From the NCBI RefSeq assembly GCF_900107485.1, contig NZ_FNQE01000010.1, forward strand, positions 1-64,000: a stretch of DNA of 64,000 nucleotides, given 5' to 3'. This DNA comes from Proteiniborus ethanoligenes. GTDB lineage: Bacteria > Bacillota > Clostridia > Tissierellales > Proteiniboraceae. The position numbers were made by a program, and so were the translations under genes. A model generated the notes under the pieces. That model did not search any database and was not told where the DNA came from. It saw only the letters and a list, made by a program, of their open reading frames with translations. Of this stretch, positions 9,014-42,499 are shown one piece after another (position 1 is the stretch's first letter; each line of letters begins with the position of its first letter).

Positions 9014-10560
<1,547 letters not shown>

Positions 10561-23367: not shown

Positions 23368-25098
23368 TTATTCTTTAACTTCTAAATCCATAAAATCAAA
23401 TCTTGAAACATCAAACAAGCCTAAATCCGTTACTTTAATTTCAGGTATAACTGGTAAAGCTAAAAAGGATAATGTCATAAATGGATCTATATCTTTGTTT
23501 ACGTTAAGATGTTCATATGCTATCTTAAGCATTTCTTTAAGCTTTTCATTTACTACTTCCATAGGCTCATCTGATATAATCCCAGCTATTGGAAGCTCTA
23601 AGGTCTTAAGGATTTCTCCTTTAGATGCTATGGTAATACCTCCACCAACTTTAGCAACCTTATCTATAGCTAATAGCATATCTTCATCATTGTCTCCAAT
23701 TACTATTAGATTATGAGAATCATGAGCTATTGTAAGTGCTATTGCTCCATTTTTCAGCCTGAAATCTTCAACTAACCCTAATCCAATATTACCAGTAGCA
23801 TTATGTCTTTCGATAACAGCCAACTTTAATATATCTAATTTTTCGTTATTCACGAACTCCCCATCTTTAGTGCTTATTTTTCTGACCACTCTTTGGGTAA
23901 ATAAGCTATGTGATGATAATCTCATAACATTTGCTATATCTGTGTGGTTTTTTATCCTTAAATCATCCTTGGTTACAGGTTTTATTCTCACTGTATCAAC
24001 AACATTTGAATTGTCAAAATCCTTTACATTAAATAAGGGCTCTTTATTTTCTGCTACAAGCCTACCATTTTTAAAGACTTGAAGCACATTAAAATCCTTT
24101 AGATCATCTATTATTATAATATCTGCAATATATCCTGGTGCTATGGCTCCTAGCTTTTTAAGACCATAGCATTCAGCAGCATTTATTGTAGCCATTTGGA
24201 TAGCTGATATTGGGTCTATACCATTTTTAATAGCAAGCCTCACATTATTATCTATATGTCCTGTTAAGAGTATATCCTCAGGATGCTTATCATCTGTACA
24301 AAATAAACATCTTCTCATATTCTCTCTTTTTAAGCCCCTAACCAATTCCTTTAGGTTTCTTGCAGCAGACCCCTGTCTGACTAAAATGTACATTCCAAGT
24401 CTAAGCCTGTTCATCATTTCTTCTACTGTAGAGCATTCATGCTCTGTAAGAACTCCTGCTGCTACATAAGCATTTAATTCCTTGTTTTTTATTTCTGGTC
24501 CATGACCATCTATTATCTTACTATGTTCTTTTGACAATTGAATCTTGTCGACAATATCATCATCTCCTGCAATGACACCAGGATAGTTCATTAGCTCCCC
24601 TAAACCTAGTATTCTCTCATTTCCAATTAGCTCTTTTAAATCTTCTGCTAATAGCTCTGCTCCTGAGGTTTCAAAGGATGTGGCAGGAACACAGGAGGGC
24701 AGCATAAAATATGCATTTAAAGGTAATCCTTCACTTGCCTCCATCATGTATTTGATACCCTCTAATCCTTTTACATTAGCTATTTCATGTGGGTCTGCTA
24801 TAATTGTTGTAGTACCCCTTGGTACTACTGCTCTAGCAAACTGTGGTGGTGATACCATTGCAGATTCTATGTGAACATGTCCATCAATAAGTCCTGGAGC
24901 AACAAACCTTCCCTCTACATCTATTTCTTTTTCCCCAAAATAATTACCTATACCTACGATTTCTCCTTCGTGTATGGCTATATCTCCATCTACTATTTCG
25001 TGTGAAAATACGTTTACGATTCTTGCATTTTTAAGAACTAATTCTGGTTTCATTCTGCCATATGCTAGGTCTATTTTCTTTTTTATTTCTCCCTTCAT
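23368..25098 (-). CDS. ade: Adenine deaminase
   Basis: This 576-residue amidohydrolase-superfamily enzyme converts adenine to hypoxanthine and ammonia. Metal-site motifs are GHVHIES (from ~75), ADPHEIAN, and GHGPEIKNKELNAYVAAG in the middle; the C-terminal Ade domain contains AIALTIAHDSHNLIVIG. The start is the ATG at 25098, with GGAGG 7 nt upstream; the longer frame to 25116 begins inside the binding site. It lies directly downstream of the xanthine dehydrogenase genes, so adenine enters the same hypoxanthine/xanthine route. A paralogue sits in the BMC operon at 30745. Confidence 0.93.
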   Translation of the reverse strand: MKGEIKKKIDLAYGRMKPELVLKNARIVNVFSHEIVDGDIAIHEGEIVGIGNYFGEKEIDVEGRFVAPGLIDGHVHIESAMVSPPQFARAVVPRGTTTIIADPHEIANVKGLEGIKYMMEASEGLPLNAYFMLPSCVPATSFETSGAELLAEDLKELIGNERILGLGELMNYPGVIAGDDDIVDKIQLSKEHSKIIDGHGPEIKNKELNAYVAAGVLTEHECSTVEEMMNRLRLGMYILVRQGSAARNLKELVRGLKRENMRRCLFCTDDKHPEDILLTGHIDNNVRLAIKNGIDPISAIQMATINAAECYGLKKLGAIAPGYIADIIIIDDLKDFNVLQVFKNGRLVAENKEPLFNVKDFDNSNVVDTVRIKPVTKDDLRIKNHTDIANVMRLSSHSLFTQRVVRKISTKDGEFVNNEKLDILKLAVIERHNATGNIGLGLVEDFRLKNGAIALTIAHDSHNLIVIGDNDEDMLLAIDKVAKVGGGITIASKGEILKTLELPIAGIISDEPMEVVNEKLKEMLKIAYEHLNVNKDIDPFMTLSFLALPVIPEIKVTDLGLFDVSRFDFMDLEVKE

Positions 25099-25224
25099 TT
25101 TATTACCTCCTTCCAAAACATATATTTAACAAGGAGCTATATTAAAACCAATTACGTTACAACTAAGGATTTAAATACAGCTCCTTCATTCTATGTTCTC
25201 ATGTATTTATTTGCTTCTTAATAA

Positions 25225-26208
25225 TTATTTATTTTCATTTAAAGCTTTTATTAGCTTTTCTGGGGTAACAGGAATCTCAGTCATTCTAACTCCAACTGCA
25301 TTATATATTGCATTTAATATTGCAGGAGCTACATAGATTAGCACAGGCTCTCCTATTCCCTTTGCTCCATATGGAGCTGTAGATTCTGGATCCTCAACAA
25401 TAATCTTATCTACCTCTGGCATATCCATAGAGGTTGGTATTAAATAATTAGTAAATCTGTTGTTCTTTATTTGTCCTTTAACTACATTTAGATTTTCCAT
25501 TATTGCATAGCCATATCCCATGGCAAATCCACCATCTATTTGACCTTCAACTAATGTAGGATTAATAGCCTTGCCCACATCTTGAGCAACTGTAGCTTTT
25601 AATATTTCAACAACTCCAGTTTCCGTATCCACCTCTACCTCTACTCCACATGCTCCAAATGTATATGGCCAATATGGTGAGCCTTGGCCTGTTTCATCAT
25701 CCATTTGAGTAGAATGGGCTATAAAGGTAGCTTCTTTTCTTAATGGTTCATCACCAATTTTTTGAGCTATTTCTTTGAAGGTTACATTTTTGCTTGGGAA
25801 GGTTTTTATATATACACTTCCATTTTTCATAGCTAAGCCTGTATCACTATTTACTCCTAGTATTTCGACTGAAATCTTAATAATTTCTTCTTTTAGTGCT
25901 TCTGCAGCTTTTTTTATTGCATTTCCTGTATTATAGGTCTGTCTACTTGCGGCTGCAGTGCCTGCATCTGGTGTTATACTAGTATCCTCACATATAAACA
26001 CTATATTTTCTACTCCTATACCTAAAACCTCTGCTGGTATTTGACTCATTATTGTCTTAGCACCTTGCCCAACCTCTGTAGCTCCAACGTATATTGCTAT
26101 ATTACCATCATGTCTTAGCTCTGCAATAGCATTTGAAACGTCTGGAAATCCATTACCATATCCTGTTCCATAAAACATTGTCGCAAATCCTATTCCTCTT
26201 TTTTTCAT
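25225..26208 (-). CDS. Xanthine dehydrogenase/purine hydroxylase, C-terminal (medium) molybdopterin subunit
   Basis: This protein of about 327 residues corresponds to the C-terminal half of the usual single molybdopterin subunit. It holds the cofactor-contact segment GQGAKTIMSQIPAEVLG, the DTSITPDAGTAAASRQTYNTG block, and the catalytic-Glu region GAKGIGEPVLIYVAPAILNAIYNAV. The start ATG (26206-26208) overlaps the stop of the large subunit as ATGA, with AAAGGTGG upstream, so this is a coupled gene rather than a frameshift. The same split is known in nicotinate dehydrogenase of Eubacterium barkeri. Purine context favours hypoxanthine/xanthine/purine as substrate, but nicotinate is a possible alternative. 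Confidence 0.85.
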   Translation of the reverse strand: MKKRGIGFATMFYGTGYGNGFPDVSNAIAELRHDGNIAIYVGATEVGQGAKTIMSQIPAEVLGIGVENIVFICEDTSITPDAGTAAASRQTYNTGNAIKKAAEALKEEIIKISVEILGVNSDTGLAMKNGSVYIKTFPSKNVTFKEIAQKIGDEPLRKEATFIAHSTQMDDETGQGSPYWPYTFGACGVEVEVDTETGVVEILKATVAQDVGKAINPTLVEGQIDGGFAMGYGYAIMENLNVVKGQIKNNRFTNYLIPTSMDMPEVDKIIVEDPESTAPYGAKGIGEPVLIYVAPAILNAIYNAVGVRMTEIPVTPEKLIKALNENK

Positions 26209-27482
26209 TGGGCTACACCACCTTTGAATCTTTCTATAAAGTTCATTTTCTTTTCCACTTCTTCTATGCATTTATCTAATGGAACACTTTCGTCTAATAT
26301 TTGTCCAGTAGCCGTTTCTGAGCCTACCTTAAATATGTTCTTTAATCTAAAGGTGATAGGATCTATATTTAGCTTTTCTGCAAGCATATCCATTTGCTGC
26401 TCATGTGCTATAGGTACTTGAGTTGCTCCGAAACCTCTCATTGCTCCTGCAAATGGATTGTTTGTATATACTGAATAGCTATCAACCTTTATATTTGGTA
26501 TTTCATAAGGACCTGTGGCATGAACTCCAGCTTTTCTCATGACATTAATAGCCCAAGAAGCATAAGCCCCTGTATCTCCAATTAATATGGCTTCCATAGC
26601 TAATAGCTTTCCATCCTTGGTAGCACCAGTCTTATATTTCATCTTAACAGAATGTCTCTTACAATGAGCGTCAAAGGATTCTTCTCTCGAGTATATAGCT
26701 TTTACTGGCTTGCCTGTGATCTTCGCAGCCATTGCTAAGTGTATTTGCATAGTAATATCTTCTCTTCCACCAAAAGCTCCTCCAACTGCAGGATTAATTA
26801 TCTTTACCATATGGGGTGGCACTCCCATAGCTTCTGCTACTTCCAATTGGTCAAAATGTGGATATTGAGTTGCAACAGCTACTACTATAGTACCGTCCTC
26901 TTCCATATATGCTACTCCCGCTTCTGGCTGTAAAAATACATGGTCAACCATAGGCACAAAGTATTCATTTTCTACTATTACATCACACTTTTTAAATGCT
27001 TCTTCCATATTTCCTTTTCTAAGCTTGTAGTGATAAACTATGTTGCTATTTCCTTCATGTATCTGTGGTGCAGTTTCCTTCATTCCTTCTGAAGGGTCAA
27101 AAACTGCCTCCAACTCTTCATATTCTACTTTTATAGCCTTTAATGCCTTTTCTGCTATTTTTTCTGTATTAGCTACTACAAAAGCTATTGGGTCTCCTAT
27201 TCTTCTTACTTTTTTATTGCAGAGAACCTCATGGTCTTTAAATAAAACACCATGGCTATTTACCCCTGGCACATCCTTTGCAGTTAATATCTGAACTACT
27301 CCATCTATGCCTAAGGCCTCAGAAATATCTAGCTTAAAATACGCATGGGGCTTAGTAGATCTTAAGGTTTTTCCATAAAGCATTCCTTCTATATATATGT
27401 CTTGGGGATACACGGCTTTTCCTGTTACTTTAGAAAGGCCATCTACTCTTATTACACTTTTCCCTACAACATCTAGCTTCAC
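26205..27482 (-). CDS. Xanthine dehydrogenase/purine hydroxylase, N-terminal (large) molybdopterin subunit
   Basis: This 425-residue protein corresponds to the N-terminal half of a xanthine-dehydrogenase-type molybdopterin subunit. It has the Ald_Xan_dh_C domain first (RVDGLSKVTGKAVYPQDI), then the cofactor-binding motifs NPAVGGAFGGREDI and GAMRGFGATQVPIAHE. The start is a GTG at 27482 with GGGAGG 8 nt upstream; the frame to 27527 would overlap the FeS gene. It ends in GGVAQ at TGA, where the medium subunit starts. The enzyme hydroxylates purines next to N using water, in the cytoplasm, and should carry a cytidine-type Mo cofactor with labile selenium, given the accessory genes. Confidence 0.86.
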   Translation of the reverse strand: MKLDVVGKSVIRVDGLSKVTGKAVYPQDIYIEGMLYGKTLRSTKPHAYFKLDISEALGIDGVVQILTAKDVPGVNSHGVLFKDHEVLCNKKVRRIGDPIAFVVANTEKIAEKALKAIKVEYEELEAVFDPSEGMKETAPQIHEGNSNIVYHYKLRKGNMEEAFKKCDVIVENEYFVPMVDHVFLQPEAGVAYMEEDGTIVVAVATQYPHFDQLEVAEAMGVPPHMVKIINPAVGGAFGGREDITMQIHLAMAAKITGKPVKAIYSREESFDAHCKRHSVKMKYKTGATKDGKLLAMEAILIGDTGAYASWAINVMRKAGVHATGPYEIPNIKVDSYSVYTNNPFAGAMRGFGATQVPIAHEQQMDMLAEKLNIDPITFRLKNIFKVGSETATGQILDESVPLDKCIEEVEKKMNFIERFKGGVAQ

Positions 27483-27483
27483 C

Positions 27484-27957
27484 TTACTTCCCTCCCTGTA
27501 AATCTTTTGCAGCCTTTTCAACTGCATTTACAATTTTGTTATAGCCAGTACAACGACAGAGGTTTCCTGATATTGCTTCTCTAATATCTTTTCTTGTTGG
27601 AGAGGAGTTTTTGTCTAATAAGGATTTGGCAGATAGCACCATGCCCGGAATACAAAATCCACATTGAACAGCACCTTCATCTAAGAAGGCTTGTTGAATA
27701 GGATCTATGCCATTTTCGTCTCCTAAGCCTTCTATGGTAACGATTTCACTTCCCTCAGCTTGAAATCCCATTACTAAGCATGAGGCTACTGCTTCGCCAT
27801 CCATAATTACTGTACAGGCTCCGCATTCACCTTCTCCACATCCTTCCTTAGTACCTATAAGTCCAAGCTTATCTCTTAAAACATCTATAAGCCTCATATC
27901 CTCTTCAACTTCTACCCTATAGGTCTTTCTATTTACATTAAGTTCTATTGTTTTCAT
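27484..27957 (-). CDS. Xanthine dehydrogenase/purine hydroxylase [2Fe-2S] subunit
   Basis: This 157-residue two-cluster iron-sulfur subunit has the plant-ferredoxin-type site CGEGECGACTV with a later Cys, and the helical-domain site CGFCIPGM ... CRCTGYNKI. It passes electrons from the Mo site to FAD. I use the ATG at 27957, with AGAGGAAGG 8 nt upstream; a GTG at 27966 directly abuts that site. The gene abuts the large-subunit start by one base. Confidence 0.92.
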   Translation of the reverse strand: MKTIELNVNRKTYRVEVEEDMRLIDVLRDKLGLIGTKEGCGEGECGACTVIMDGEAVASCLVMGFQAEGSEIVTIEGLGDENGIDPIQQAFLDEGAVQCGFCIPGMVLSAKSLLDKNSSPTRKDIREAISGNLCRCTGYNKIVNAVEKAAKDLQGGK

Positions 27958-27987
27958 AGCTTTCACCTTCCTCTAAAAATAGAATTA

Positions 27988-28857
27988 TTAAGCTGGATTG
28001 TATATATTGACTACCCTGTTCAATGCATCTCTTAATACTCCTTTAACAGCTACGCTTTTAAAGCCAACAGTAGATCTACCAGCTAATCTTTGTGCTACTT
28101 GATTTTGCATGTGTTGTATTCCCTCTTGGATTACTTCCTCTGTCAGCTTTTTACCTTTAAAGAATTCTTCTACTTCTCTTTCTCTCATTCCGTATCTTCC
28201 TAGGGAGCCGTTAGCTATTTTAATTTCTTTTAGAGTTTCATCTTCATTAATTTCAGCAAATACACTAGTACATATTCTAGAGATAGCTAGGGCTTTTCTG
28301 AGGCCAAGCTTGCTAAAAGACAACATTTCATTCTTTTTTGGAGCCTTGAACTTTACAGATACTAGGATTTCATTGTCCTTAATATCTACTTGCCCTTTAT
28401 CTAAGAATAATTTCTCAACTAATACTTCCCGTTCCCCACTCTTGCTTTTTATTTTAGCAACTGCGTCTAGTGCAAGTAATGGTGGGACTATATCTGCTGC
28501 AGGAGAGCCATTACAAATATTGCCTCCAATAGTTCCTTTGTTTCTTATTTGAGGTGAGCCTACAGAATATGCTGCTTCTCTTAACCCTACAAGTCTGTCT
28601 TGAAATAAATCAGACTTAACTATCTCCGTAAAAGTTGTAGCTCCACCTATTTCAATCATGTCCTCTTCTGCCTTTATGAAAGACATTTCCTTTATATCAG
28701 AAATATCTATTAGGGCTTCAAAATTCACAGTTCCATTCTTAATTTCTATAACTAGGTCTGTTCCTCCCGCAATTAATTTCCCTTGTCCTTTATGCTTGTC
28801 TAGAAGCTCGACTGCTTCCCCTATGGTTTTTGGCTTATATGCATATTTGATTGACAT
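27988..28857 (-). CDS. Xanthine dehydrogenase/purine hydroxylase FAD subunit
   Basis: This 289-residue FAD-binding subunit of the CO-dehydrogenase/xanthine-dehydrogenase medium class has the PP-loop LIAGGTDLVIEIKNG near residue 33 and the second FAD motif SVGSPQIRNKGTIGGNICNGSPAADIVPP around residues 108-136, followed by the CO_deh_flav_C domain. It is the first gene of the hydroxylase operon, with GGAGG before the start. It passes electrons to NAD(P) or another acceptor. Confidence 0.92.
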   Translation of the reverse strand: MSIKYAYKPKTIGEAVELLDKHKGQGKLIAGGTDLVIEIKNGTVNFEALIDISDIKEMSFIKAEEDMIEIGGATTFTEIVKSDLFQDRLVGLREAAYSVGSPQIRNKGTIGGNICNGSPAADIVPPLLALDAVAKIKSKSGEREVLVEKLFLDKGQVDIKDNEILVSVKFKAPKKNEMLSFSKLGLRKALAISRICTSVFAEINEDETLKEIKIANGSLGRYGMREREVEEFFKGKKLTEEVIQEGIQHMQNQVAQRLAGRSTVGFKSVAVKGVLRDALNRVVNIYNPA

Positions 28858-30667: not shown

Positions 30668-30695
30668 TATGAAAAGGTTTTCAATAAATGTATTT

Positions 30696-30746
30696 CTTAG
30701 GCTTTTATACTTTTTTAAAGTATAAAAGCCTAAGAGTTTTTATTTT
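30696..30746 (+). terminator. 18-bp hairpin with T-run on the antisense side
   Basis: Bases 30696-30713 pair perfectly with 30717-30734 around a TTT loop and are followed on the plus strand by TTTTTATTTT, which runs into the stop of the minus-strand deaminase. The deaminase transcript itself sees the hairpin right after its stop but with only a weak U-tract. Confidence 0.65.
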
Positions 30747-32559
30747 ACTTAACTATTGGCTCAAGGATTTCAAAGTTATTTACGTCAATTAGACCTTGAT
30801 CCGTTAGCTTCCATTTCGGACTAGTAGATAATGCTAAGAAGGATAAATGCATAAATGGTGCATGTATGGTGCCACCAAGCTGTTCTTTTACTACTTTGTC
30901 AAGATTAGCTACCTTTGCACTTACCTCTGAGCCTGTAAGCTCATCTGTTATAAGTCCTCCCACAGGCAATCTTAGTTCTTCTAAAACTCTACCGTTGTTA
31001 ACTACTGATATGCCACCGCCCATTTCAATAACACGATTTACTGCAATGACCATGTCTTTTAAATTTGTGCCTGCAACCATAATATTATGAGTGTCATGGG
31101 CAACACTTTCTGCAATTGCTCCTTGTTTTAAGCCAAAGCCCTGAACAAAGCATTTTCCTATGCTACCATTGCGGCCATATCTCTCAACGCAGGCCATATA
31201 AATAACATCTTGTTTAAGGTCTGGTTCCACTATTCCTCTGTTTACTTTAAGCTCTACTTCAAGAGTTTCTGTTAGGTTTTGATCTGGAATAGCAATTATA
31301 CATCTACCTGTTACTTGGTTTCCTTCTGCTCTGATTTCTAAATCTGATTCTGTTATTGGTCCTCTCTTAACTGAATGTTTTACCACGTCTGGATAAGTAT
31401 ATTTTGGAAGATCTATTATTAGCTTTCCTTGTGAGGCAACTAGCTGGCCTTCAATAAATACAGCCTCAACTGTCATTTCCTTCAAATCGCTGATGATAGC
31501 TATGTCTGCCATTTTAGCTGGTGCTAATACTCCTCTATCTTCTAAGCCAAAATATGTGGCAGGGTTTATTGTTACCATTTGAATAGCTTCAACTGGATCT
31601 ACACCTTGTGCTATAGTTCTTCTCACTATTTCATTCATATGTCCTAGTTTTTCAAGATCTTCAGCTACCATATCATCAGTAGCTAATATACATCTTCTTG
31701 AATCAAAGCCTTCCTCTGTAACAGCTCTAATGCATTCGGCCATGTTCTTTTGAGTTGAACCCTCTCTCATAAATACATATACACCTTGTCTAAGCTTTTC
31801 AACACATTCTTCTTTAGTTGTAGTCTCATGACAAGAACATTTTCCGCCTGTAGATATTATGTGAGCAGCAAGTTCTGGACCAAAAAGCTCTGGTGCATTT
31901 CCATCTACTACTTTTCCTAAGCTTTTAGCATAAATAGTGGAAGCTAATAGATCTGTAATTACTTCGGGAGTATTTCTATATACATGTTTGGCATTACTAA
32001 AGCCTTGTAGCTCTCCAATACCTATAATATTTGGGTGACTTAACAAATCAGGAATGTCCTTTGATGAAACATCATGACCTGCAGTTTCAAGGCTTGGGCT
32101 ATCTGGCACAAGTGCTGGCACCACAAATCTAACGTGATTTGGAACAACACTAGCTTCATCTGCCATAGCCTTCATACCTACTGGCCCTAACGCGTTACCG
32201 ATTTCATGTGGATCTGCTACTAATGTAGTTGTACCAGATGGTATTGATAATCTAGAGAATTCTGTAACAGTAAGCATACTACTTTCAAAATGCATATGTG
32301 AATCAATAAATCCTGGAGATAAGTATTTGCCCTTGACATCAACTACTAATGTGTCAGGTCCTATTAAAGAAGCTGAATCTCCAACTAATAATATATACTT
32401 ACCTTTTATAGCTATGTCTGCAGTATAAACTTCTCTTGTCAATACGTTGATAACATTCCCATTATAAAGCACTATATCTGCAAAATGCTTATCTGACATA
32501 AGCACATCTATTAAATTTCGGTACTCCATTGCCTGTTTAATTCCTTGAACACCTAACAA
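30745..32559 (-). CDS. Adenine-deaminase-family amidohydrolase in the BMC operon
   Basis: This 604-residue member of the Ade family has DSHMHFES, VADPHEIGN, DGNAPELFGPELAAHI and the C-terminal GAIAESVAHDTHNIMVAG block. It starts at a TTG with GGAGG 7 nt upstream, 22 bp after the BMC-P stop, so it is part of the shell operon. It has an N-terminal extension relative to the Ade at 23368, beginning with a possible amphipathic helix (GIKQAMEYRNLIDVLM) that might act as an encapsulation peptide. It may deaminate adenine. In this context I suggest 4-aminoimidazole deaminase of the purine fermentation pathway, which is inference. Confidence 0.85.
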   Translation of the reverse strand: MLGVQGIKQAMEYRNLIDVLMSDKHFADIVLYNGNVINVLTREVYTADIAIKGKYILLVGDSASLIGPDTLVVDVKGKYLSPGFIDSHMHFESSMLTVTEFSRLSIPSGTTTLVADPHEIGNALGPVGMKAMADEASVVPNHVRFVVPALVPDSPSLETAGHDVSSKDIPDLLSHPNIIGIGELQGFSNAKHVYRNTPEVITDLLASTIYAKSLGKVVDGNAPELFGPELAAHIISTGGKCSCHETTTKEECVEKLRQGVYVFMREGSTQKNMAECIRAVTEEGFDSRRCILATDDMVAEDLEKLGHMNEIVRRTIAQGVDPVEAIQMVTINPATYFGLEDRGVLAPAKMADIAIISDLKEMTVEAVFIEGQLVASQGKLIIDLPKYTYPDVVKHSVKRGPITESDLEIRAEGNQVTGRCIIAIPDQNLTETLEVELKVNRGIVEPDLKQDVIYMACVERYGRNGSIGKCFVQGFGLKQGAIAESVAHDTHNIMVAGTNLKDMVIAVNRVIEMGGGISVVNNGRVLEELRLPVGGLITDELTGSEVSAKVANLDKVVKEQLGGTIHAPFMHLSFLALSTSPKWKLTDQGLIDVNNFEILEPIVK

Positions 32560-32580: not shown

Positions 32581-32865
32581 TTACTTATCTATGAATTCAT
32601 TGTACACATCCATATTGTCTACTATACCTACAATAGCAGCATCTATAGCAGAGGTTTTCTTTTCAGCAGCATTTCGTGATGCAGTCCCTGTTGCATATAT
32701 AACTATTTCTCCAATACCTGCACCCACTGTATCTACTGCTACTAAGGGCTTTCCTGTAGGCTTCATATCTATGTCTATAGGCTGTGTTAATAAAAGCTTG
32801 CTCCCTACTAAGCTATCACTTTTTCTTGTTGCAACTACCGTACCTATAATTCTACCTAATTGCAT
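32581..32865 (-). CDS. BMC pentameric vertex protein (EutN/CcmL family, BMC-P)
   Basis: This 94-residue protein begins MQLGRIIGTVVATRKSDSL and contains LVAVDTVGAGIGEIVIYATG, the hallmark of EutN/CcmL vertex pentamers that cap the twelve corners of a microcompartment shell. Length and motifs are canonical. It lies 15 bp after the flavoprotein-like gene and 22 bp before the amidohydrolase gene. Confidence 0.95.
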   Translation of the reverse strand: MQLGRIIGTVVATRKSDSLVGSKLLLTQPIDIDMKPTGKPLVAVDTVGAGIGEIVIYATGTASRNAAEKKTSAIDAAIVGIVDNMDVYNEFIDK

Positions 32866-33776: not shown

Positions 33777-34055
33777 TTATTCATATTTGTTTAGTATTAC
33801 TCTTTCAACTTCTGAATGTGGTCTTGGGATTACATGAACTGAGTGTAATTCTCCAACTGATCTTGCAGCTTCTGCGCCAGCGTCTGTAGCAGCCTTTACT
33901 GCTCCAACATCACCTCTAACCATTACAGTTACAAGACCAAAACCTATTTTTTCATATCCTACTAAAGTAACATTAGCAGCTTTAACCATTGCGTCTGCTG
34001 CTTCAACTGCACCTACTAATCCTTTAGTTTCTACCATACCTAATGCTTGACTCAT
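33777..34055 (-). CDS. BMC hexameric shell protein (BMC-H)
   Basis: This 92-residue single-domain BMC protein has [26 protein letters not shown] at the start, [21 protein letters not shown] in the middle and [10 protein letters not shown] at the end, the pattern of PduA/CcmK/EutM hexamers that tile shell facets. A strong GGAGG precedes the ATG. It is one of three BMC-H genes in the operon. Confidence 0.97.
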
Positions 34056-34076: not shown

Positions 34077-34472
34077 TTACTTTGCACTTGTTTTCTTTTT
34101 ATTTGCTTCTGAATTAGATGTTTTTTCTTCATTTCCTGTTTTTTTCTCTACTGGTTTCTCTTTTTCCTTCTTTTCTTTTAGGTTTTTTTCAAACTCCTTT
34201 ATGAGTTTGTCAACCTCTTCATGTGGTCTAGGTATTACATGACCTGAAACTACAGTTCCAACTCGGCTAGCTGCAGCTACTCCAGCATCTACAGCAGCTT
34301 TTACAGCTGCAACCTCTCCTGCAATATTTATAGTCACACTGACAACCTTTTCAACACCTATTACTTTGTCATAACCTACAAGCTTAACATCTGCTGCTTT
34401 ACTTGCAGCATCTAATGCAGTAATAGCTGTAGTTAAGCCTATTGTTTCAATTAGTCCAAGAGCTGCTTTCAC
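34077..34472 (-). CDS. BMC-H shell protein with charged C-terminal extension
   Basis: This 131-residue protein has a normal BMC domain (residues 1-~90, ALGLIETIGLTTAITALDAASK ... VIPRPHEEVD) followed by about 40 residues rich in Lys and Glu. The extension (KEKPVEKKTGNEEKTSN) is probably disordered and could project into the lumen or cytosol as a scaffold. The start is a GTG with GGAGG 7 nt upstream. The extension is unusual relative to its two siblings. Confidence 0.93.
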   Translation of the reverse strand: MKAALGLIETIGLTTAITALDAASKAADVKLVGYDKVIGVEKVVSVTINIAGEVAAVKAAVDAGVAAASRVGTVVSGHVIPRPHEEVDKLIKEFEKNLKEKKEKEKPVEKKTGNEEKTSNSEANKKKTSAK

Positions 34473-34497: not shown

Positions 34498-34956
34498 CTA
34501 TAGTAAGGAGCCTTTTTTTCCTATTGAGTCTAATGATACTTTAGGAATATAAGCCTCTAATTTGTTTATTACTCCAGTTTTTACATAAACCGGTTCTTTA
34601 CTTGAATCCTTTTCTTTTACATTGTCTTCTTCTTGAGTTTTTTTAACTTTTCCTGCCAGCTCATCTAAGGTCATCATTGTATTTGACTTTTTAAAATCCT
34701 CAGTGCTTTTGCTAGGCCTTAAACCGCCCTTTACTAAATCCTCTAGCTTAACTTTTTCAAAATAATTAGAGCTATTATTAAACTCTGTTGGTTTATGAGT
34801 TGCTTTCTTATTCATAACATTAAGCAATATTTGCTCTTCATTTTTATCTAAACCTGAAATTTTATAGGTGCTATTTGAATAGCCACTTTTCCCATGAACC
34901 TTGTTACTATTTTGGGCTATATTGTTCATGATTACTCTTGCTAATGGGTTAGCCAT
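34498..34956 (-). CDS. Unknown BMC-operon protein (152 aa), possible scaffold or cargo adaptor
   Basis: I do not recognise this protein. It starts with a short, possibly amphipathic helix (ANPLARVIMNNIAQN), has a helical stretch around DKNEEQILLNVMNKK, a Lys/Glu/Ser-rich low-complexity middle, and ends in VINKLEAYIPKVSLDSIG. It has no signal peptide and no Cys. It sits between two BMC-H genes with tight spacing, so it is very likely a BMC component. Helical ends around a disordered centre resemble scaffold proteins that link cargo to shells, which is inference. The start at 34956 follows GGTGGTG; an ATG at 34971 is possible. Confidence 0.7.
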   Translation of the reverse strand: MANPLARVIMNNIAQNSNKVHGKSGYSNSTYKISGLDKNEEQILLNVMNKKATHKPTEFNNSSNYFEKVKLEDLVKGGLRPSKSTEDFKKSNTMMTLDELAGKVKKTQEEDNVKEKDSSKEPVYVKTGVINKLEAYIPKVSLDSIGKKGSLL

Positions 34957-34975
34957 TTTTTTCACCACCATTTAG

Positions 34976-35257: not shown

Positions 35258-36622
35258 TTATTTATTTTTTATCCCTGGAAGATATTTGTTAATGTCTATT
35301 TTTTCAAATCCAGGAATTTCAGCTCTTTCAAACAACACTGATTTTTCGCCTAAAGGTTTTGTAGCATCTATTCCCATTTTATCTGTAAGGCCTCTGGCAA
35401 CATGAGATGCTTCTAAGCCTGAGCCTAATGCATTAGGAATAATAACAACATCCTCTGATGCTTGAACTCTAGAGGCAATTGCTAGCTCTATGTCTTTGTA
35501 GTCGTAAATATCTATATCATCGTCTACAATAAGTACATGCTTTATGTCTTTGCTGCTTCCTAAGGCTGAAATAATAGCACTTTTCCCATCACCTTCATTT
35601 TTCTTGTTAATAGATACAATTGCATGTAGCCTACAGCCACCTGCTACGGTTACATTTACATCCTTTACATCTACTACAGCCTTGACAGAATTATATATTT
35701 CTATTTCTCTAATAAGGCCATTTGCCAAATGTTCCTCTCTGCAAGGGAATGCATGCTGGAATATTGGATCATTTCTATGCATAATAGTCCTCACTTCCAT
35801 AATAGGTACAGGAGCCACCTCTCCATAGTATCCCATTAGTTCTCCAAAAGGTCCTTCTACTATAGTTTTGTTTGGAAGGATAACACCCTCTAGTACAATC
35901 TCAGCATAAGCTGGAACCTCTAAGTCTACAGAATGGCATTTTACTAGTTCAAGTGGTTCTCCTCTTAGAGCACTATCGACCATATGTTTATCTATGCCAT
36001 ATTTAGTTGAACTGATTTGAGATGCTAAAAGATAAGGGGCGTCATAGCCAAGCACTACAGCACACTCTAATGGCTTATTCATTGCATTATATCTCTCCAT
36101 CTGAGCTCTTAAATGAGGTGAAGCTCCTGAAACTAATGCATTTATTATATTGCCGCCATTTATCTGAAATCTCCTAACTGCCATATGTGTTTCACCTGTT
36201 ATATCGTCTTTTACTATAAGCATACCGGCAGTTATGTAGCTTGAGGAATCCTTTCCGTGTGATGTAGGTACTGGAAGCATTTTAGGAATGTCAATATTTC
36301 TAGTTATGATATTTTCCTTTACAGGACCATTACTTAAAAGCTTAGCTGGTTGTGGGTTAGCTATAGCATCCATGAATTTAAACAGTCTTTCCTCTTTGTT
36401 TGTTCCCATTAAATCATAATAAAGCTGTCTATTTCCATACAACCCGCCTAGGACTTTCATATTGTAGCCTTTTACCTTGTTAAATAATATAGGTTTTTCA
36501 TTTTGGAAGTATCTTAGGACTGCTCCCAATTCAAATTTAGGATCTACTGTAACATTACAAACTTCAAATTCTCCGAGCTGTTCTAGCTTATTTATAGTAG
36601 CCCTTAGCATCTGTTTTTCCAT
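35258..36622 (-). CDS. UbiD-family decarboxylase
   Basis: This 454-residue UbiD-family enzyme uses prenylated FMN to decarboxylate aromatic or heteroaromatic acids. Family features visible are MAVRRFQINGGN (a prFMN/metal contact region), EIVLEGVILPNKTIVEGPFGELMGYYG, and the middle block CREEHLANGL. The start at 36622 has GGAGG 6 nt upstream; a longer frame runs into ubiX. Paired with ubiX 20 bp upstream and a BMC-H gene 15 bp downstream, it is the best candidate here for 4-amino-5-imidazolecarboxylate decarboxylase. That substrate is inferred from the neighbours. Confidence 0.88.
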   Translation of the reverse strand: MEKQMLRATINKLEQLGEFEVCNVTVDPKFELGAVLRYFQNEKPILFNKVKGYNMKVLGGLYGNRQLYYDLMGTNKEERLFKFMDAIANPQPAKLLSNGPVKENIITRNIDIPKMLPVPTSHGKDSSSYITAGMLIVKDDITGETHMAVRRFQINGGNIINALVSGASPHLRAQMERYNAMNKPLECAVVLGYDAPYLLASQISSTKYGIDKHMVDSALRGEPLELVKCHSVDLEVPAYAEIVLEGVILPNKTIVEGPFGELMGYYGEVAPVPIMEVRTIMHRNDPIFQHAFPCREEHLANGLIREIEIYNSVKAVVDVKDVNVTVAGGCRLHAIVSINKKNEGDGKSAIISALGSSKDIKHVLIVDDDIDIYDYKDIELAIASRVQASEDVVIIPNALGSGLEASHVARGLTDKMGIDATKPLGEKSVLFERAEIPGFEKIDINKYLPGIKNK

Positions 36623-36642
36623 ACTCTCCCTCCCTTCAAGTT

Positions 36643-37197
36643 TTATTCTCCCCATCTTTTAAAGAGATTATGTTCAATATGGAGCTGGTCTAATACTTTA
36701 CCAACAATTATACTCACAATGTCACCAAGATTTTCAGGATGATTATAAAACCCTGGAGAAGCAGGTAACACCGTAACTCCCATTTTTGCAAGCTTTAACA
36801 TATTCTCTAAATGAATTACGCTGAGAGGAGTTTCCCTAGGAACCATTATTAGCTTCCTATTCTCTTTTATTATAACATCTGCAGCTCTTGTCAACAAATT
36901 ATCTGATATACCATTTGCAACAGAAGCTATAGTTTTCATGGAGGAGGGAATTATCACCATTGCATCCGTTTTAAAAGACCCACTAGATATGGGTGCGGCT
37001 AAGTCTTTATTTTCATGGAAATAGGTTGCTAATCCTTTTAATTCTTCAAGTTTTATCCCACACTCATGCTCTGTCACATATTCGCCCATTGTGCTAACTA
37101 CAAGATGGGTTTCTATATTTAACTCTTGAAGTACTTTTAAAAGTGCCACTCCATAAATAGCCCCACTTCCTCCGGAGATCCCAACTACTACCTTCAT
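36643..37197 (-). CDS. ubiX: UbiX-type flavin prenyltransferase
   Basis: This protein of about 184 residues starts MKVVVGISGGSGAIYG, has PSSMKTIASVANGISDNLLTRAADV and the VPRETPLSVIHLENMLKLAKMG block, and ends in a conserved Gly/Pro loop (PASPGFYNHP). UbiX joins dimethylallyl phosphate and FMN to make prFMN for UbiD enzymes. I use the ATG at 37197, with GAGGG 8 nt upstream. It is next to its presumed client ubiD. Confidence 0.93.
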   Translation of the reverse strand: MKVVVGISGGSGAIYGVALLKVLQELNIETHLVVSTMGEYVTEHECGIKLEELKGLATYFHENKDLAAPISSGSFKTDAMVIIPSSMKTIASVANGISDNLLTRAADVIIKENRKLIMVPRETPLSVIHLENMLKLAKMGVTVLPASPGFYNHPENLGDIVSIIVGKVLDQLHIEHNLFKRWGE

Positions 37198-37340
37198 ATG
37201 TTTTACCCTCACTTTCTTATGTTGAATTATCCTAGTTGAAATAAGCAAAGAACCATTTCTCTTTTAGGCACAAAAAGTCGTCTCTATATATTTAGTTGGC
37301 GACTTTCTCATATGCTAATTATGTGCTTAAATATTCATTA

Positions 37341-37373: not shown

Positions 37374-37985
37374 TTATTTTACTTTGTTTTCCGGGTCTCC
37401 TGCTCCTACCCATGGATCTAATCCTTTTTCAAATGCATCAGTATATTCATCTATTGTCATAACTTTTGTAAATATACTAAGGTCTACTAATCCATGCTCA
37501 TGTTGCTCATCAGTTTTTGAATGAACTCCGTCACTTAATGTAATTACCTTATAAGCGTTAGCTAAAGCATCAGCAGCAGTAGATCTAACACATACGTTAG
37601 TCCATACTCCAGTAACAACAACAGTTTCTATAGCTTCTTCTCTTAAGAATAAATCTAAGTCAGTATGCCAGAAAGCACTATGTCTTCTCTTTTGAACTAT
37701 ATATTCACCTTGCTCTGGATATAATTCTTTAATAAAATCTGATCCCCATGTTCCTTTTATAGCATGAACTGGTCTCACTCTAAAATCTGCATCCTTTTCT
37801 CTATGAGCTTCTTGGATATGAACCAGTTGAACATCATCTTTTCCTTGAGCATTTCTTTCTCTTACCCATTTAAATAATTTTTGAAGATTTGGAGTTATTT
37901 TTGCTGTACCTTCACAGTATAGTGCCCCTTTTTCGTTTGCAAAGTCATTTAACATGTCTATAATTAATATTGCATGTCTTGCCAT
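37374..37985 (-). CDS. Isochorismatase-fold cysteine hydrolase (amidohydrolase)
   Basis: This protein of about 203 residues has the catalytic triad of the family: Asp in LIIDMLNDF, a Lys around VQKRRHSAFWHTDL, and the nucleophile Cys in VVTGVWTNVCVRSTAADA. Relatives hydrolyse N-carbamoyl and other amides (N-carbamoylsarcosine amidase, nicotinamidase, ureidoacrylate hydrolase). That makes it a good candidate for removing the ureido group from 4-ureido-5-imidazolecarboxylate, which is inference. The ATG at 37985 has GGGAG 8 nt upstream. Confidence 0.87.
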   Translation of the reverse strand: MARHAILIIDMLNDFANEKGALYCEGTAKITPNLQKLFKWVRERNAQGKDDVQLVHIQEAHREKDADFRVRPVHAIKGTWGSDFIKELYPEQGEYIVQKRRHSAFWHTDLDLFLREEAIETVVVTGVWTNVCVRSTAADALANAYKVITLSDGVHSKTDEQHEHGLVDLSIFTKVMTIDEYTDAFEKGLDPWVGAGDPENKVK

Positions 37986-38036
37986 TTTCATCTCTCCCTT
38001 TATTTAAATTTAAAATTTGTTTTTTGTATTTTTTTC

Positions 38037-38090: not shown

Positions 38091-39686
38091 TTAGTAAGTT
38101 ATTGTTCTAGGTAAAACCTGAATGCTTTGTCTCTTAACGAATCTACCAAATCCAGGCTTTACTTGAATTCCTCTAATGCCTCTTACATGCTTATCTATTA
38201 CTTCTGGATGTTCCTTTCTATAGCTTCTTTCGTATTCAGCGCTATATAAGTTAGGGAAGTTTTTAAATATTTCTGGATATCTTTCTCTAACTCCTTCTGG
38301 ATATTCATGAACTATAGTCTTTAGTTCTTCATCAGTTAGTGATGCTAATGTGCTTTCATCTACGTCTTTATATACTAAATGTCCACGAACTATTGTTTTC
38401 TCTACTCTTCCTTGTAGCTCCATGCCTTCAAGTGGAGTATACCCACACATTGAAGCTTGTTTCTTAGGCTCTATAACCCATCTTTTATCTAGGTCAATTA
38501 TAGTAAAGTCAGCATCTGAGCCTATGTGTAATGCACCTTTTTTAGGATATAATCCATAATGTTTAGCAGCATTAGTTGATAGGATATCTACTAGCTTGCT
38601 TAGTGAAATTCTTCCTTTATTGTATCCTTCGCTAACTATAACAGGCACCATAGTTTCAACTCCAGGTATTCCTGGGAATGCTGTCCATATATTTAAGCCT
38701 TCTTTTATCTTTTCACTTTCTAATTCATAAGGAGCATGGTCAGTAGCTATGAAATCAATACTTCCATTTCTAATTCCTTCCCACTGCTCTTCATTATCTC
38801 GTTTAGTTCTTAACGGTGGAGCTATCTTAGCATTTGCACCATGTATTGTCATAGACTCTTGATAGTTTAAGGTTAAATAGTGAGGACAAGATTCTGAAGT
38901 TACGTTTAAGCCCCTCTTCTTTGCTTCTCCTACTAATTTTGCACCTATACCAGTACTCATGTGAACTATGTGTAGTCTAGCACCTGATGCTTCTGCAAAG
39001 CTAATGCCTAGTTCTATAGCAACTTTTTCAGCTAATTCCATTCTAGCTTCTGCCCAAGCTGGTCCGTCCATACGTCCTTCTTTTTGGAACTCTTTTACAT
39101 AATAGTCACACATAGCAAAGTTTTCAGCATGAATTCCTATTGGAAGACCTGTTTTTGCAACCGCTCTAAATGCTTCATACATTTCAGGGTCAGTAACTCT
39201 TGGATAGGTTGGAACTGATGGAGTCATATAAACCTTAAATGCAACTACTCCATAATCAGCTTGTTCTTGAACATTGTGTAGCCAGCCTTCTCTTACATCT
39301 TCTCCAGTGACTCCACCCCACATAGCAAAGTCAACTAATGCTTGTGGCTGACATACGTCTATTTTAAGCTTTAATTCATCAACACTTCTTGCTGATGGAA
39401 CAGAACAACATGGCATATCTATAATTGTTGTAATTCCACCTGCTGCTGCTGCTGTTCCTGTTAAGAAATTCTCTCTATGAGGAAAGCCTTGATACATAAA
39501 GTGAGTATGTGAATCAATACATCCCGGTAAAGTAAGATGACCTCCAGCGTCTATAACGTTTTTAGCCTCTATTCCGTCAACACAGTCTGTAAATCCTGCT
39601 ATTTTTTCATCTTTTACTAGAATATTAGTTAAAACAGTATTGTCCCCTTGAGGTATTCTAGCATTTTTAAGAATCATATCATACAT
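38091..39686 (-). CDS. Hydantoinase/allantoinase-like cyclic amidohydrolase
   Basis: This 531-residue binuclear-metal amidohydrolase opens cyclic amides. Metal ligands are visible: DSHTHF, the carboxylated Lys in AFKVYMT, His in IHAEN and LHIVHMST, and Asp in ATDHAPY. The core ends near residue 450. A C-terminal extension of ~80 residues (YPE-rich, with many Arg/Tyr and ending in a Lys/Arg tail) is not usual in dihydropyrimidinases and may interact with the shell. In this operon it is the best candidate for xanthine amidohydrolase, the ring-opening first step of purine fermentation. Allantoinase or dihydropyrimidinase activity is the alternative. GGAGG precedes the ATG. Confidence 0.88.
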   Translation of the reverse strand: MYDMILKNARIPQGDNTVLTNILVKDEKIAGFTDCVDGIEAKNVIDAGGHLTLPGCIDSHTHFMYQGFPHRENFLTGTAAAAGGITTIIDMPCCSVPSARSVDELKLKIDVCQPQALVDFAMWGGVTGEDVREGWLHNVQEQADYGVVAFKVYMTPSVPTYPRVTDPEMYEAFRAVAKTGLPIGIHAENFAMCDYYVKEFQKEGRMDGPAWAEARMELAEKVAIELGISFAEASGARLHIVHMSTGIGAKLVGEAKKRGLNVTSESCPHYLTLNYQESMTIHGANAKIAPPLRTKRDNEEQWEGIRNGSIDFIATDHAPYELESEKIKEGLNIWTAFPGIPGVETMVPVIVSEGYNKGRISLSKLVDILSTNAAKHYGLYPKKGALHIGSDADFTIIDLDKRWVIEPKKQASMCGYTPLEGMELQGRVEKTIVRGHLVYKDVDESTLASLTDEELKTIVHEYPEGVRERYPEIFKNFPNLYSAEYERSYRKEHPEVIDKHVRGIRGIQVKPGFGRFVKRQSIQVLPRTITY

Positions 39687-39743: not shown

Positions 39744-39786
39744 ACAAACTGGAGAGTCTAACTCTCCTAGTTTGTCAATATTTTTT
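39744..39786 (+). terminator. Hairpin with antisense-side T-run after fhs
   Basis: ACAAACT/AGTTTGT (39744-39750 / 39769-39775) and GGAGAGT/ACTCTCC (39751-39757 / 39761-39767) stack into one stem with a single bulge. T6 follows on the plus strand and overlaps the fhs stop; the coding strand has an A-run after it. Confidence 0.6.
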
Positions 39787-41455
39787 AGAACAATCCAACT
39801 ATGGTACCATCTGGAAGAATATCCATTTTATTTGCTGCTGGTACTTTTGGTAATCCTGGCATTGTCATAACTTCTCCTGTAAGTGCTACTATAAATCCTG
39901 CACCTGCTGACAATCTTAATTCTCTTACAGTTATATTAAATCCTGATGGTCTTCCTAACAATGATGCATCATCTGATAAAGAGTATTGAGTTTTTGCCAT
40001 ACATATAGGCATCTTGTCTAATCCTAGTCCCTCTAGTGTCTTTATCATTTTTTCTGCACCTTTTGTAAATGTAACTCCGTCAGCACCATATACTTCTTTT
40101 GCTATTTTCTCAATTTTTTCTTTTATTGGTAGCTCAACATCGTATAATGTTTTGAAGTTTGATTCTTTACTTTCTACTACTTCTATTACCTTTTTAGCTA
40201 GTTCAACTCCACCTTCTCCACCATTTGCCCACACATCTGATATTGCTACCTCTGCTCCTAGAGCTTTTACCTTTTGGAATACTAGGTCCAGCTCTGCCTG
40301 TGTATCTGTCGGGAATTTGTTTATTGCTACTACTGATGGAACTCCAAACTTCCCTACGTTTTCTATGTGTTTTTCTAGGTTTTCTAATCCTTTCTCTAAT
40401 GCATTTAGATTTTCTGTACCTAGGTCAGCTTTTGCTACTCCTCCATGCATCTTTAATGCTCTTACTGTAGCTACTATTACTGCTGCCGCTGGTTTTAAGC
40501 CTGCAAATCTACATTTTATATCGAAGAACTTTTCTGCACCTAGGTCAGCACCAAATCCTGCTTCTGTAACTGCATAGTCTCCTAGCTTTAATGCCATTTT
40601 AGTTGCTAATATGCTGTTACATCCATGAGCAATATTGGCAAATGGACCTCCGTGAATTAATGCTGGTGTATTCTCAAGAGTTTGCACTAGGTTTGGTTTT
40701 ATTGCATCTTTTAATATTAGTGCCAAAGCTCCAGTTGCTTCTAAGTCTTTTGCTCTTACTGGCTCTCCCTCTAGATTGTATGCTACCACCATGTTACCTA
40801 ATCTTTCTTTTAAATCGTCTAAATCATTAGCTAAACATAAGATAGCCATTATCTCTGATGCTACTGTTATGTCAAATCCATCCTGCCTTGGAACGCCTTC
40901 TGTTCTTCCGCCCAAGCCAATAACTATATTTCTTAGTGCACGGTCGTTCATATCAACTACTCTTTTCCATGCAATTCTTCTTGTGTCTATGTTAAGTGCG
41001 TTTCCTTGATGTATATGGTTATCTAGTAATGCAGCTAGTAAGCTATGTGCTGATGTAATTGCATGGAAGTCTCCTGTAAAGTGTAGGTTTATGTCCTCCA
41101 TTGGAACTACTTGTGCATATCCTCCACCTGCTGCTCCACCCTTTACTCCAAAAGATGGTCCTAAAGATGGTTCTCTTAATGCTGTTATAGTTTTTTTACC
41201 TAATTTGTTAAGACCCATGCTTAAGCCTATGTTTGTTGTTGTCTTACCTTCTCCCGCTGGAGTAGGATTTATCGCTGTTACTAATATTAATTTTCCATCT
41301 GGTTTGTCCTTTAGTCTGTCAAATACCCCTAATGATACTTTTGCTTTATACTTTCCATATAACTCTAACTCATCTTCTAATAGTCCTATGCTTTCTGCCA
41401 CTTCTGATATAGGCTTCATTGTAGCTTCTTGTGCTATTTGAACATCTGTTTTCAC
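39785..41455 (-). CDS. fhs: Formate--tetrahydrofolate ligase
   Basis: This 556-residue formyl-THF synthetase interconverts formate + THF + ATP with 10-formyl-THF + ADP + Pi. It has the P-loop [18 protein letters not shown] near residue 67, [35 protein letters not shown] (stated by region ~95-130), and the usual C-terminus. In purine fermentation it runs in the ATP-forming direction, using formyl groups released from purine carbon. The start is a GTG with GGAGGAG 8 nt upstream. It lies between the amidohydrolase and formiminotransferase genes. Confidence 0.97.
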
Positions 41456-41554: not shown

Positions 41555-42499
41555 TTACTCCATTAAATGTGTTTCTAATATTTGGTCTCTTCTAAATCCT
41601 TCTAATCCTAAGTAGTATTCTAATGAATTTATAATATATTCAAGCTTTATTGGCCCTACTACCTCTGAGCCTGTTACTGGTATTCCATATCTTGCTGCTT
41701 CTTGTTTTACTAACTCAAACACTCTATACATTGGAGTGTTTTGGCAATCAAACATATTTACCGATACTACTACTCCTTCTCTTTCTGGGAACTTGATTCC
41801 GACTGCTCTTGTTGTTGAGAATCCACCACTTGGTCCTCTAACTGCTTTAGCTATTTTCTTTGCTATTTCTAGATTTTCTGTTGCTAAAAACACATTATAT
41901 GCTGTCAGCCCTTCAGCTTCTGCACTTACTATTGTAGCTCCTGCTTTGTCACTTAGTAAGCCATCCTTGCTTAGGTCTGGTTTTCTTGATTCATATTCTA
42001 CTTTTCTTGATTCATCATCTTTTATTTCTTTTAATAAAGCATTTAATCCTTCATATTGTCCTTTTCTAATAAAAGCTAAGGCTTTTCTTTCTTCTGTTCT
42101 CGCATTTTCAGCTGCAAAGAATACAGGTACTCCTGTTTTTTCATGTAACTCATGTCCTATTTCTTCTGCTAGCTTTACACATTCTTCTACTGTAATATTT
42201 TTGAATGGGAATAGAGGTATAGTGTCTTGTGAGCCTATTCTTGGATGTGTTCCTTTTTGCTCTTCCATATTGATTAGTTCTATGGATTTTGCAGCCATAT
42301 TAAGAAGTGCTACTTTTAGCGGTGCTGGTTCTCCTATAATTGTAACAACTGTTCTGTTAAAGTCATGCTCTGGTTCATAGCTTACTAGCTTTACACCTTC
42401 TACCTTTCTAACTTCTTCTACAACTGCTTCAATTACTTCTTTTCTTCTTCCGTCACTAAAATTAGGTACTGCTAAGATATACTGTTTTTCTGCAGACAT
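41555..42499 (-). CDS. Formiminotransferase (FTCD N-terminal family), probably glycine formiminotransferase
   Basis: This 314-residue protein has both formiminotransferase subdomains: YILAVPNFSDGRRKEVIEA at the start, ENARTEERKALAFIRKGQYEG in the middle, and ARYGIPVTGSEVVGPI. It moves a formimino group from an amino acid to THF. Annotation pipelines would call it glutamate formiminotransferase. With no histidine-degradation genes nearby and a purine-fermentation context, formiminoglycine is the more likely donor (inference). GGAGG precedes the ATG; it is the first gene of the long minus-strand run towards the BMC genes. Confidence 0.9.
   Translation of the reverse strand: MSAEKQYILAVPNFSDGRRKEVIEAVVEEVRKVEGVKLVSYEPEHDFNRTVVTIIGEPAPLKVALLNMAAKSIELINMEEQKGTHPRIGSQDTIPLFPFKNITVEECVKLAEEIGHELHEKTGVPVFFAAENARTEERKALAFIRKGQYEGLNALLKEIKDDESRKVEYESRKPDLSKDGLLSDKAGATIVSAEAEGLTAYNVFLATENLEIAKKIAKAVRGPSGGFSTTRAVGIKFPEREGVVVSVNMFDCQNTPMYRVFELVKQEAARYGIPVTGSEVVGPIKLEYIINSLEYYLGLEGFRRDQILETHLME

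Follow-up and report, generated by a model that had tools for sequence, protein, structure and literature searches.

Gene content of the shell cluster

The window analysed here, a 64,000-nucleotide stretch of Proteiniborus ethanoligenes DNA, carries a cluster of microcompartment shell genes that ends in an adenine-deaminase-family gene, which we call Ade2 and which is the subject of this analysis. Ade2 spans positions 30745 to 32559 on the minus strand and encodes 604 residues from a TTG start at 32559, a start backed by a strong ribosome site, AAAGGAGG, lying 8 nucleotides (nt) ahead of it. Directly upstream lies BMC-P (32581–32865, minus strand), a shell vertex protein of the EutN/CcmL family (PF03319) whose gene ends 21 nt from the Ade2 start; a sequence-only reading of this DNA had placed Ade2 directly after BMC-P, at a distance that it gave as 22 bp, and this position holds. 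The same reading had recognised two Ade-family genes in the window, one of them after the hydroxylase genes, and the open reading frames and domains bear this out: Ade1 (23368–25116, minus strand), a canonical adenine deaminase with a full metal-ligand set (beta-5 H205), follows the xanthine-dehydrogenase-type (XDH) genes, and Ade1 and Ade2 both contain PF01979 amidohydrolase and PF13382 Adenine_deam_C domains. The genome total is three, however, since contig C4 carries one more, less closely related member of the family (G000:C4:36790–38502, locus L039). Ade1 easily clears the 472.5-bit cut-off of the NCBIfam adenine deaminase model TIGR01178 (638.5 bits) and Ade2 passes narrowly (481.6 bits); for Ade2, models of different families all score below PRK10027, which is likewise an adenine deaminase model.

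Read in gene direction, the minus strand begins with a formiminotransferase of the FtcD family (41555–42499), followed by formate-tetrahydrofolate ligase (39785–41455), an allantoinase/hydantoinase-like amidohydrolase of 531 residues (Hyu, 38091–39686), an isochorismatase-family hydrolase (Iso, 37374–37991), the flavin prenyltransferase UbiX (36643–37248) and its partner, a UbiD-family decarboxylase (35258–36655). Next come an 88-residue BMC-H shell protein (PF00936, 34976–35242), a 157-residue protein without a Pfam family that may be scaffold-like (34498–34971), a BMC-H protein (PF00936) with a Lys/Glu-rich C-terminal tail (34077–34472), a further BMC-H protein (PF00936, 33777–34055), a 282-residue protein with a weak match to TIGR02536 (32880–33728; 51.5 bits against a cut-off of 152.6), BMC-P and Ade2. 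A strong 20-bp hairpin (30694–30736) closely follows the Ade2 stop and separates the shell operon from a permease of the xanthine/uracil permease family (PF00860, 29131–30432, minus strand), beyond which lie the XDH genes (25225–28857, minus strand; FAD, FeS and molybdopterin subunits, the last in two open reading frames) and Ade1. A cyclase-family hydrolase (PF04199) is encoded on the plus strand at 43095–43799, divergent from FtcD.

Among the cluster genes scanned between 23368 and 45495, no aldehyde dehydrogenase was found. With its shell genes, UbiD/UbiX, Iso, Hyu, formiminotransferase and XDH, and without aldehyde dehydrogenase, the cluster contains the gene set, in matching order, of the xanthine utilisation (Xau) microcompartment predicted by Ravcheev et al., 2019 (PMC6620236) and named BUF1 in PMC8156839. 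In that prediction, which was made without experiment, step 5, the deamination of 4-aminoimidazole, is given to XauE (Amet_4572), whose gene lies between shell genes and XDH as does Ade2 (PMC6620236); judged from this gene order, Amet_4572 would be the Ade2 orthologue. In our reading, Ade2 is probably the enzyme that deaminates 4-aminoimidazole in the clostridial route of xanthine breakdown, and we place the probability at roughly three in four. The evidence lies in the divergence of its sequence from adenine deaminases and in the genes that accompany it.

Divergence of the Ade2 type

We collected 180 open frames that matched over at least 450 residues and, after removal of identical copies, retained 154, comprising 86 of Ade2 type (sharing at least 50% identity with Ade2) and 68 others, E. 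coli AdeD among them. A tree of the sequences thinned to 85 rows, built by a quick method and including some long outgroup rows, placed the Ade2 type on one side of a branch with SH-aLRT support of 100 (43 versus 42 rows) and AdeD, the sole characterised row, on the other. By this sequence comparison, the Ade2 type forms a clade of its own within the adenine-deaminase fold.

The six metal-ligand columns were assigned by motif and spacing from the published account of YerA, a Bacillus subtilis N6-methyladenosine deaminase (PDB 9JQL, PMC12133300). Five of these positions, H88, H90, E183, H244 and D295 in Ade2 numbering, do not vary in either set. The remaining one, on beta 5, is His in 67 of the 68 others and Asn (N221) in 86/86 Ade2-type proteins, so that of the binuclear set of HxH, E, H (beta 5), H (beta 6) and D, Ade2 keeps all but the beta-5 His. 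The single non-His among the others is a Cys encoded by L072, a gene of genome G042; in the tree it pairs with the third family member of the window's own genome (L039), whose product keeps the beta-5 His. The spacing between the beta-5 and beta-6 ligands differs as well, being 23 in all 86 Ade2-type proteins and 21 (58) or 22 (10) in the 68 others. In an AlphaFold2 model of Ade2, N221 directly follows the strand at 217–220, the position expected of a ligand. With the beta-5 His gone, the second metal site of the centre may be weakened or missing.

A second change lies in the lid. T579 and S580 are each present in 86/86 Ade2-type proteins, at positions where the others have V (62/68) and I (58/68); they align with YerA His554 and Leu555 (YerA numbering counted from the construct start, Gly380), which are substrate contacts in the published model (PMC12133300). 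R265, matched to the reported adenine-binding Arg260 of the Agrobacterium adenine deaminase Atu4426, is kept in 86/86 Ade2-type proteins and in 65/68 others. Thus Ade2 resembles the known adenine deaminases (Atu4426, E. coli AdeD, TIGR01178) in its full-length fold, its Adenine_deam_C domain, five of six metal ligands and Arg265, and differs in the beta-5 Asn, the ligand spacing of 23, the T-S lid in place of V-I and a clade of its own. YerA offers a comparison of another kind: it too is an adenine-deaminase relative with a different reported substrate, and residues of its C-terminal domain are among the substrate contacts, but all six of its metal ligands are kept, including His210 and His231, of which Ade2 lacks the first (PMC12133300). 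The comparison of active-site residues across a phylogeny that the sequence-only reading had proposed for the two paralogues therefore returned a separate clade, a His-to-Asn change on beta 5 and two switched lid positions.

The AlphaFold2 model is confident (pLDDT 93.7); an earlier model built from 12 rows was poor (pLDDT 64.7) and was not used. In structure comparison, Ade2 matched Atu4426 (3NQB) with Z 44.5 over 577 residues at 2.5 Å, and the best different protein reached Z 22.7. The alignment to 3NQB begins at residue 5 (the aligner reports the first and last aligned residues only), and residues 4–21 of the model form one ordered helix. These observations give no support to the suggestion that an amphipathic N-terminal helix targets Ade2 to the shell. 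The N-terminus is indeed longer than that of Ade1, with 26 versus 17 residues before the conserved core, but pre-core lengths across the 68 other Ade proteins span 2 to 29 (median 18), with E. coli AdeD at 29. The median is 25 for the 79 members of the clade counted as shell-linked and 26 for the 7 that are not shell-linked, and the N-terminal helical moment is 0.51 for both and 0.49 for other Ade (start codons were picked by a simple ribosome-site score, so that single lengths may err, the 11 residues of L132 being doubtful). An encapsulation peptide would be expected to form an amphipathic helix that a linker sets apart from the enzyme and that only shell-linked members carry. The Ade2 helix is ordered, lies inside the fold and is equal in members without shell linkage; we therefore rejected it as a distinguishing signal, and the N-terminus seems to belong to the fold itself rather than to be an added tag. 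Better candidates for a shell scaffold or targeting protein are two Pfam-less proteins encoded between BMC-H genes, the 157-residue protein at 34498–34971 and another at L106:6849–7802, both of which open with a short possible amphipathic helix.

Gene linkage and the proposed pathway

We then considered which genes accompany Ade2, scanning 84,980 species genomes and keeping the best 80 of 575 relatives. Within these 80, 65 loci were of Ade2 type (53–81% identity) and 15 were more distant (37–42%). BMC-P lay directly upstream in 60 of the 65 Ade2-type loci, with −4 to 122 nt between alignment edges, and close BMC-H (59), UbiD (58), cyclase (57), Hyu (52) and Iso (52) genes were nearly as frequent. 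Identity thresholds for these counts were of our own choosing (for example 38% for UbiD and 50% for Hyu and Iso), and the counts are lower bounds because locus stretches end at contig ends or at 10 kb; locus L129, for instance, shows no cyclase within its stretch, yet its genome (G070) carries one. The five loci without BMC-P at threshold were L111, L132, L134, L136 and L098, the last of which has a BMC-P fragment at the contig start. A search of the class added eight further loci, and all eight had BMC-P beside Ade2 and the DGNA motif.

Presence and absence agreed with this linkage. Among 60 related genomes, a set that includes the window's own, Ade2 type, the BMC-H encoded at 33777–34055 (copies 89–100% identical, counted at 89% or more) and the cyclase occurred in an identical set of 23 and were absent from the other 37. 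An Ade-family gene outside the Ade2 clade was present in 39 of the 60, including 17 without Ade2, and accompanied Ade2 in 22 of the 23. In a 391-genome sample of the class, Ade2 was found in 13 genomes, the cyclase in 12 of these 13 and the cyclase alone in none; the one Ade2 genome without it (G425) is 77% complete. The genomes counted here are mutually related, and the counts are not independent events. Taken with the separate clade, the changed metal ligand and the changed lid, this co-occurrence and the presence of another Ade gene in 22/23 genomes give good indirect support to the proposal of the sequence-only reading that the shell-linked paralogue has switched substrate.

In the pathway that we propose, all of whose substrates are inferred, Hyu would act as a xanthine amidohydrolase that opens the xanthine ring, and Iso would remove the carbamoyl group from 4-ureido-5-imidazolecarboxylate. 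UbiD, with UbiX, would then convert 4-amino-5-imidazolecarboxylate to 4-aminoimidazole, which Ade2 would deaminate to 4-imidazolone. The cyclase-family protein would open this ring to give formiminoglycine, and FtcD, as a glycine formiminotransferase, would move the formimino group to tetrahydrofolate. UbiD and Ade2 would work inside the shell, which would retain the reactive 4-aminoimidazole.

The two ring-opening steps are assigned here in reverse of the published prediction. Ravcheev et al. placed Amet_4587 at step 2 and Amet_4584 at step 6 (PMC6620236), which by gene order should be the cyclase and Hyu, respectively; we consider it likely that, instead, Hyu opens xanthine and the cyclase opens 4-imidazolone, a little less so than that Ade2 is the deaminase. 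Hyu and Iso are missing from the same 13 of the 65 loci and remain neighbours where they have been relocated (L122, L197), as expected of the successive steps 2 and 3. The cyclase was present in 13/13 genomes examined (in G060 as pieces at contig ends only), G061 and G062 carry it without a close Hyu, and it adjoins Ade2 in L111, L132, L134 and L136. The weak relatives that a search of solved structures gave for the cyclase (best E 5.5e-14) include kynurenine formamidase and isatin hydrolase. These are amide and lactam hydrolases, and isatin hydrolase opens a five-membered lactam. In G042, where one cyclase gene lies at C2:3052470, a second cyclase adjoins a second Hyu in a stretch with no shell genes (L194), an arrangement that our reassignment leaves unexplained. 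As a separate observation, the window's Hyu is longer by about 90 residues at the C-terminus; the best matches to it in G060 and G067–G070 end near residue 440.

Because Ade2 and the cyclase keep each other's company, co-occurrence alone cannot assign which step belongs to which, and the two roles might be exchanged, with Ade2 opening the 4-imidazolone ring and the cyclase-family protein or another enzyme deaminating 4-aminoimidazole. HutI, of the same superfamily as Ade2, opens imidazolonepropionate and provides a precedent. However, adenine deaminase is by far the nearest family to Ade2 over its full length, both by TIGR01178 score and by the gap between 3NQB and the best different protein, and the solved relatives of the cyclase hydrolyse amides and lactams. 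We regard this exchange as improbable.

Relatives with fewer genes help to separate the core of the system from its accessories. No EutN/CcmL gene was found in G060 (Thermosyntropha lipolytica), G061 or G062. In G060, Hyu, Iso and UbiD form one cluster (L196) and Ade2 and the cyclase another (L111). The shell-less relatives keep Ade2 beside the cyclase, L132 adding FtcD beside the cyclase and also glycine hydroxymethyltransferase. Since the enzymes occur without EutN/CcmL, the shell is probably an addition for handling an intermediate. An aerobic, shell-free version lies in Mycolicibacterium litorale (L136:162–14123), where an Ade2-type gene is followed by the cyclase and an NCS1-like permease, with genes of the formimidoylglutamate-deiminase, adenosine-deaminase and allantoate-amidohydrolase families nearby.

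L097, L100 and L114–L117, in turn, keep UbiD, shell, Ade2 and cyclase and have no close Hyu or Iso in the stretch. A close Hyu (65%) lies elsewhere in G067 and G068, and G063–G066 have none above 35% at E 1e-50; in L114 a creatininase-family gene (3956–4741) takes the usual place of Hyu and is a possible replacement for ring opening. This constant core of UbiD, shell, Ade2 and cyclase leads us to infer that 4-aminoimidazole is what the shell holds. Joined together, these observations permit a broader and more tentative reading, to which we give slightly less than even odds: the shell would serve to hold 4-aminoimidazole; Ade2 would found a deaminase subfamily in which His has become Asn at the second-metal site; UbiD, shell, Ade2 and cyclase would form the constant core and the purine-opening enzymes would be replaceable; the cyclase, not Hyu, would be the missing 4-imidazolone hydrolase; and the Ade2-cyclase pair would also work shell-free, as in Thermosyntropha and Mycolicibacterium.

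Adenine use, competing substrates and prior work

The assignment of Ade2 to 4-aminoimidazole must be weighed against the idea that it is a second adenine deaminase, or a dual adenine/4-aminoimidazole enzyme, feeding purines into the compartment. Organisms with known purine use bear on this point. C. acidurici ferments xanthine and not adenine, and its genome paper reports three genes annotated as adenine deaminase, yet adenine is unused (PMC3519856). In G042, which we take as C. acidurici 9a, Ade2 stands with the shell genes, UbiX, UbiD, Iso and Hyu in order (L052), and no permease or XDH genes matched within that stretch. This genome contains two Ade2-type genes, and its three Ade-family genes, which we equate with the three annotated ones by number and order, all lack the beta-5 His, two having Asn and one the Cys noted above (L072). 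Their common lack of this residue fits the failure of C. acidurici to grow on adenine. Reported adenine use is minus, plus and minus for C. acidurici, C. purinilyticum and E. angustum, respectively (PMC5737214; columns matched to species from the species descriptions).

Several observations weigh against our assignment. TIGR01178 still classes Ade2 as an adenine deaminase. G042 has just one Ade gene that does not belong to the clade, and its product is the protein with the beta-5 Cys. G051, a probable G. purinilytica, has two Ade2-type genes, and no other Ade-family gene or PF00962 deaminase was found in it, although the species grows on adenine; an Ade2-type protein may thus act on adenine there, and this genome argues against adenine having been abandoned entirely as a substrate. 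One Ade2 of G051 lies 696 nt from a contig end, so that a canonical gene could have fallen into an assembly gap. The Andreesenia-like genomes G017 and G030 mismatch in the opposite direction, with a canonical Ade that keeps the beta-5 His, though A. angusta does not grow on adenine; growth on adenine is therefore a poor read-out, and we did not use it as proof. G061 and G062 contain Ade2 and the cyclase and have no UbiD at E 1e-50 that would supply aminoimidazole, and UbiD, at 40–48% identity in Bacilli-type loci, is less conserved than Ade2 in distant loci.

G051 and the TIGR01178 score are what favour an adenine or dual activity for Ade2. The invariable loss of the beta-5 His, the switched lid, the other Ade-family gene in nearly every Ade2 genome, the strict linkage to UbiD and shell genes and the two Ade2-type genes of C. 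acidurici, where adenine goes unused, all argue the other way, and we judge this alternative about as unlikely as the exchange of roles with the cyclase. That Ade2 deaminates some other amino-heterocycle, such as guanine, aminoimidazole carboxylate that has yet to be decarboxylated or some unknown compound, is less likely still: retention of Ade2 without UbiD in G061 and G062 and the want of a close allantoinase-like protein in G063–G066 (best at most 35%) suggest that the upstream substrate may vary, but UbiD is present in 58/65 loci, and FtcD and glycine hydroxymethyltransferase beside some loci fit formiminoglycine and glycine as products. The Gottschalkia-like genomes G051 and G042 each carry their second Ade2-type gene away from shell genes (L042:9045–10865 and L043:8260–10077), 71–73% identical to the window's Ade2 and, by inspection, near a spermidine/putrescine-type ABC transporter.

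The 4-aminoimidazole deaminase of purinolytic clostridia is EC 3.5.4.8, an iron protein, and its substrate, pathway and organism group are those proposed here for Ade2. Titles in the reference list of PMC3519856 date the biochemical description of the route between 4-ureidoimidazole carboxylate and formiminoglycine to 1956. Hartwich et al., 2012 state that the C. acidurici enzymes from ureidoimidazole carboxylate to formiminoglycine were partly characterised, that their sequences were not published and that no genes for them had been located; their main text nowhere uses the term microcompartment (PMC3519856). Among the listed titles and abstract openings of open-licence papers we found no experimental gene assignment for 4-aminoimidazole deaminase. 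Both the NCBIfam model and the 2012 C. acidurici annotation label Ade2-type proteins as adenine deaminase.

The 4-aminoimidazole deaminase role itself is already predicted, for XauE (PMC6620236). New here are the Asn metal-ligand signature, the presence of Ade2 in a probable C. acidurici genome, the shell-free relatives and the ring-opening reassignment; neither residue analysis nor shell-free relatives figure in the Xau section of PMC6620236. If the assignment of Ade2 is true, it links an activity recognised since the 1950s to a gene and explains the purpose of a shell that, unlike those of typical catabolic microcompartments, has no aldehyde dehydrogenase. The clade, its single-residue signature and its member in G042 make the aminoimidazole step directly testable.

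Elsewhere in the window, the XDH molybdopterin subunit is encoded by two overlapping open reading frames of 440 and 348 residues (MoCoBD_1 and MoCoBD_2; 25225–27527), and a separate second molybdopterin reading frame is also found in L101 (17077–18087). Two regulatory RNAs score at Rfam gathering level on the minus strand, a Moco/tungsten riboswitch at 57121–57238 and a T-box leader at 10348–10555.

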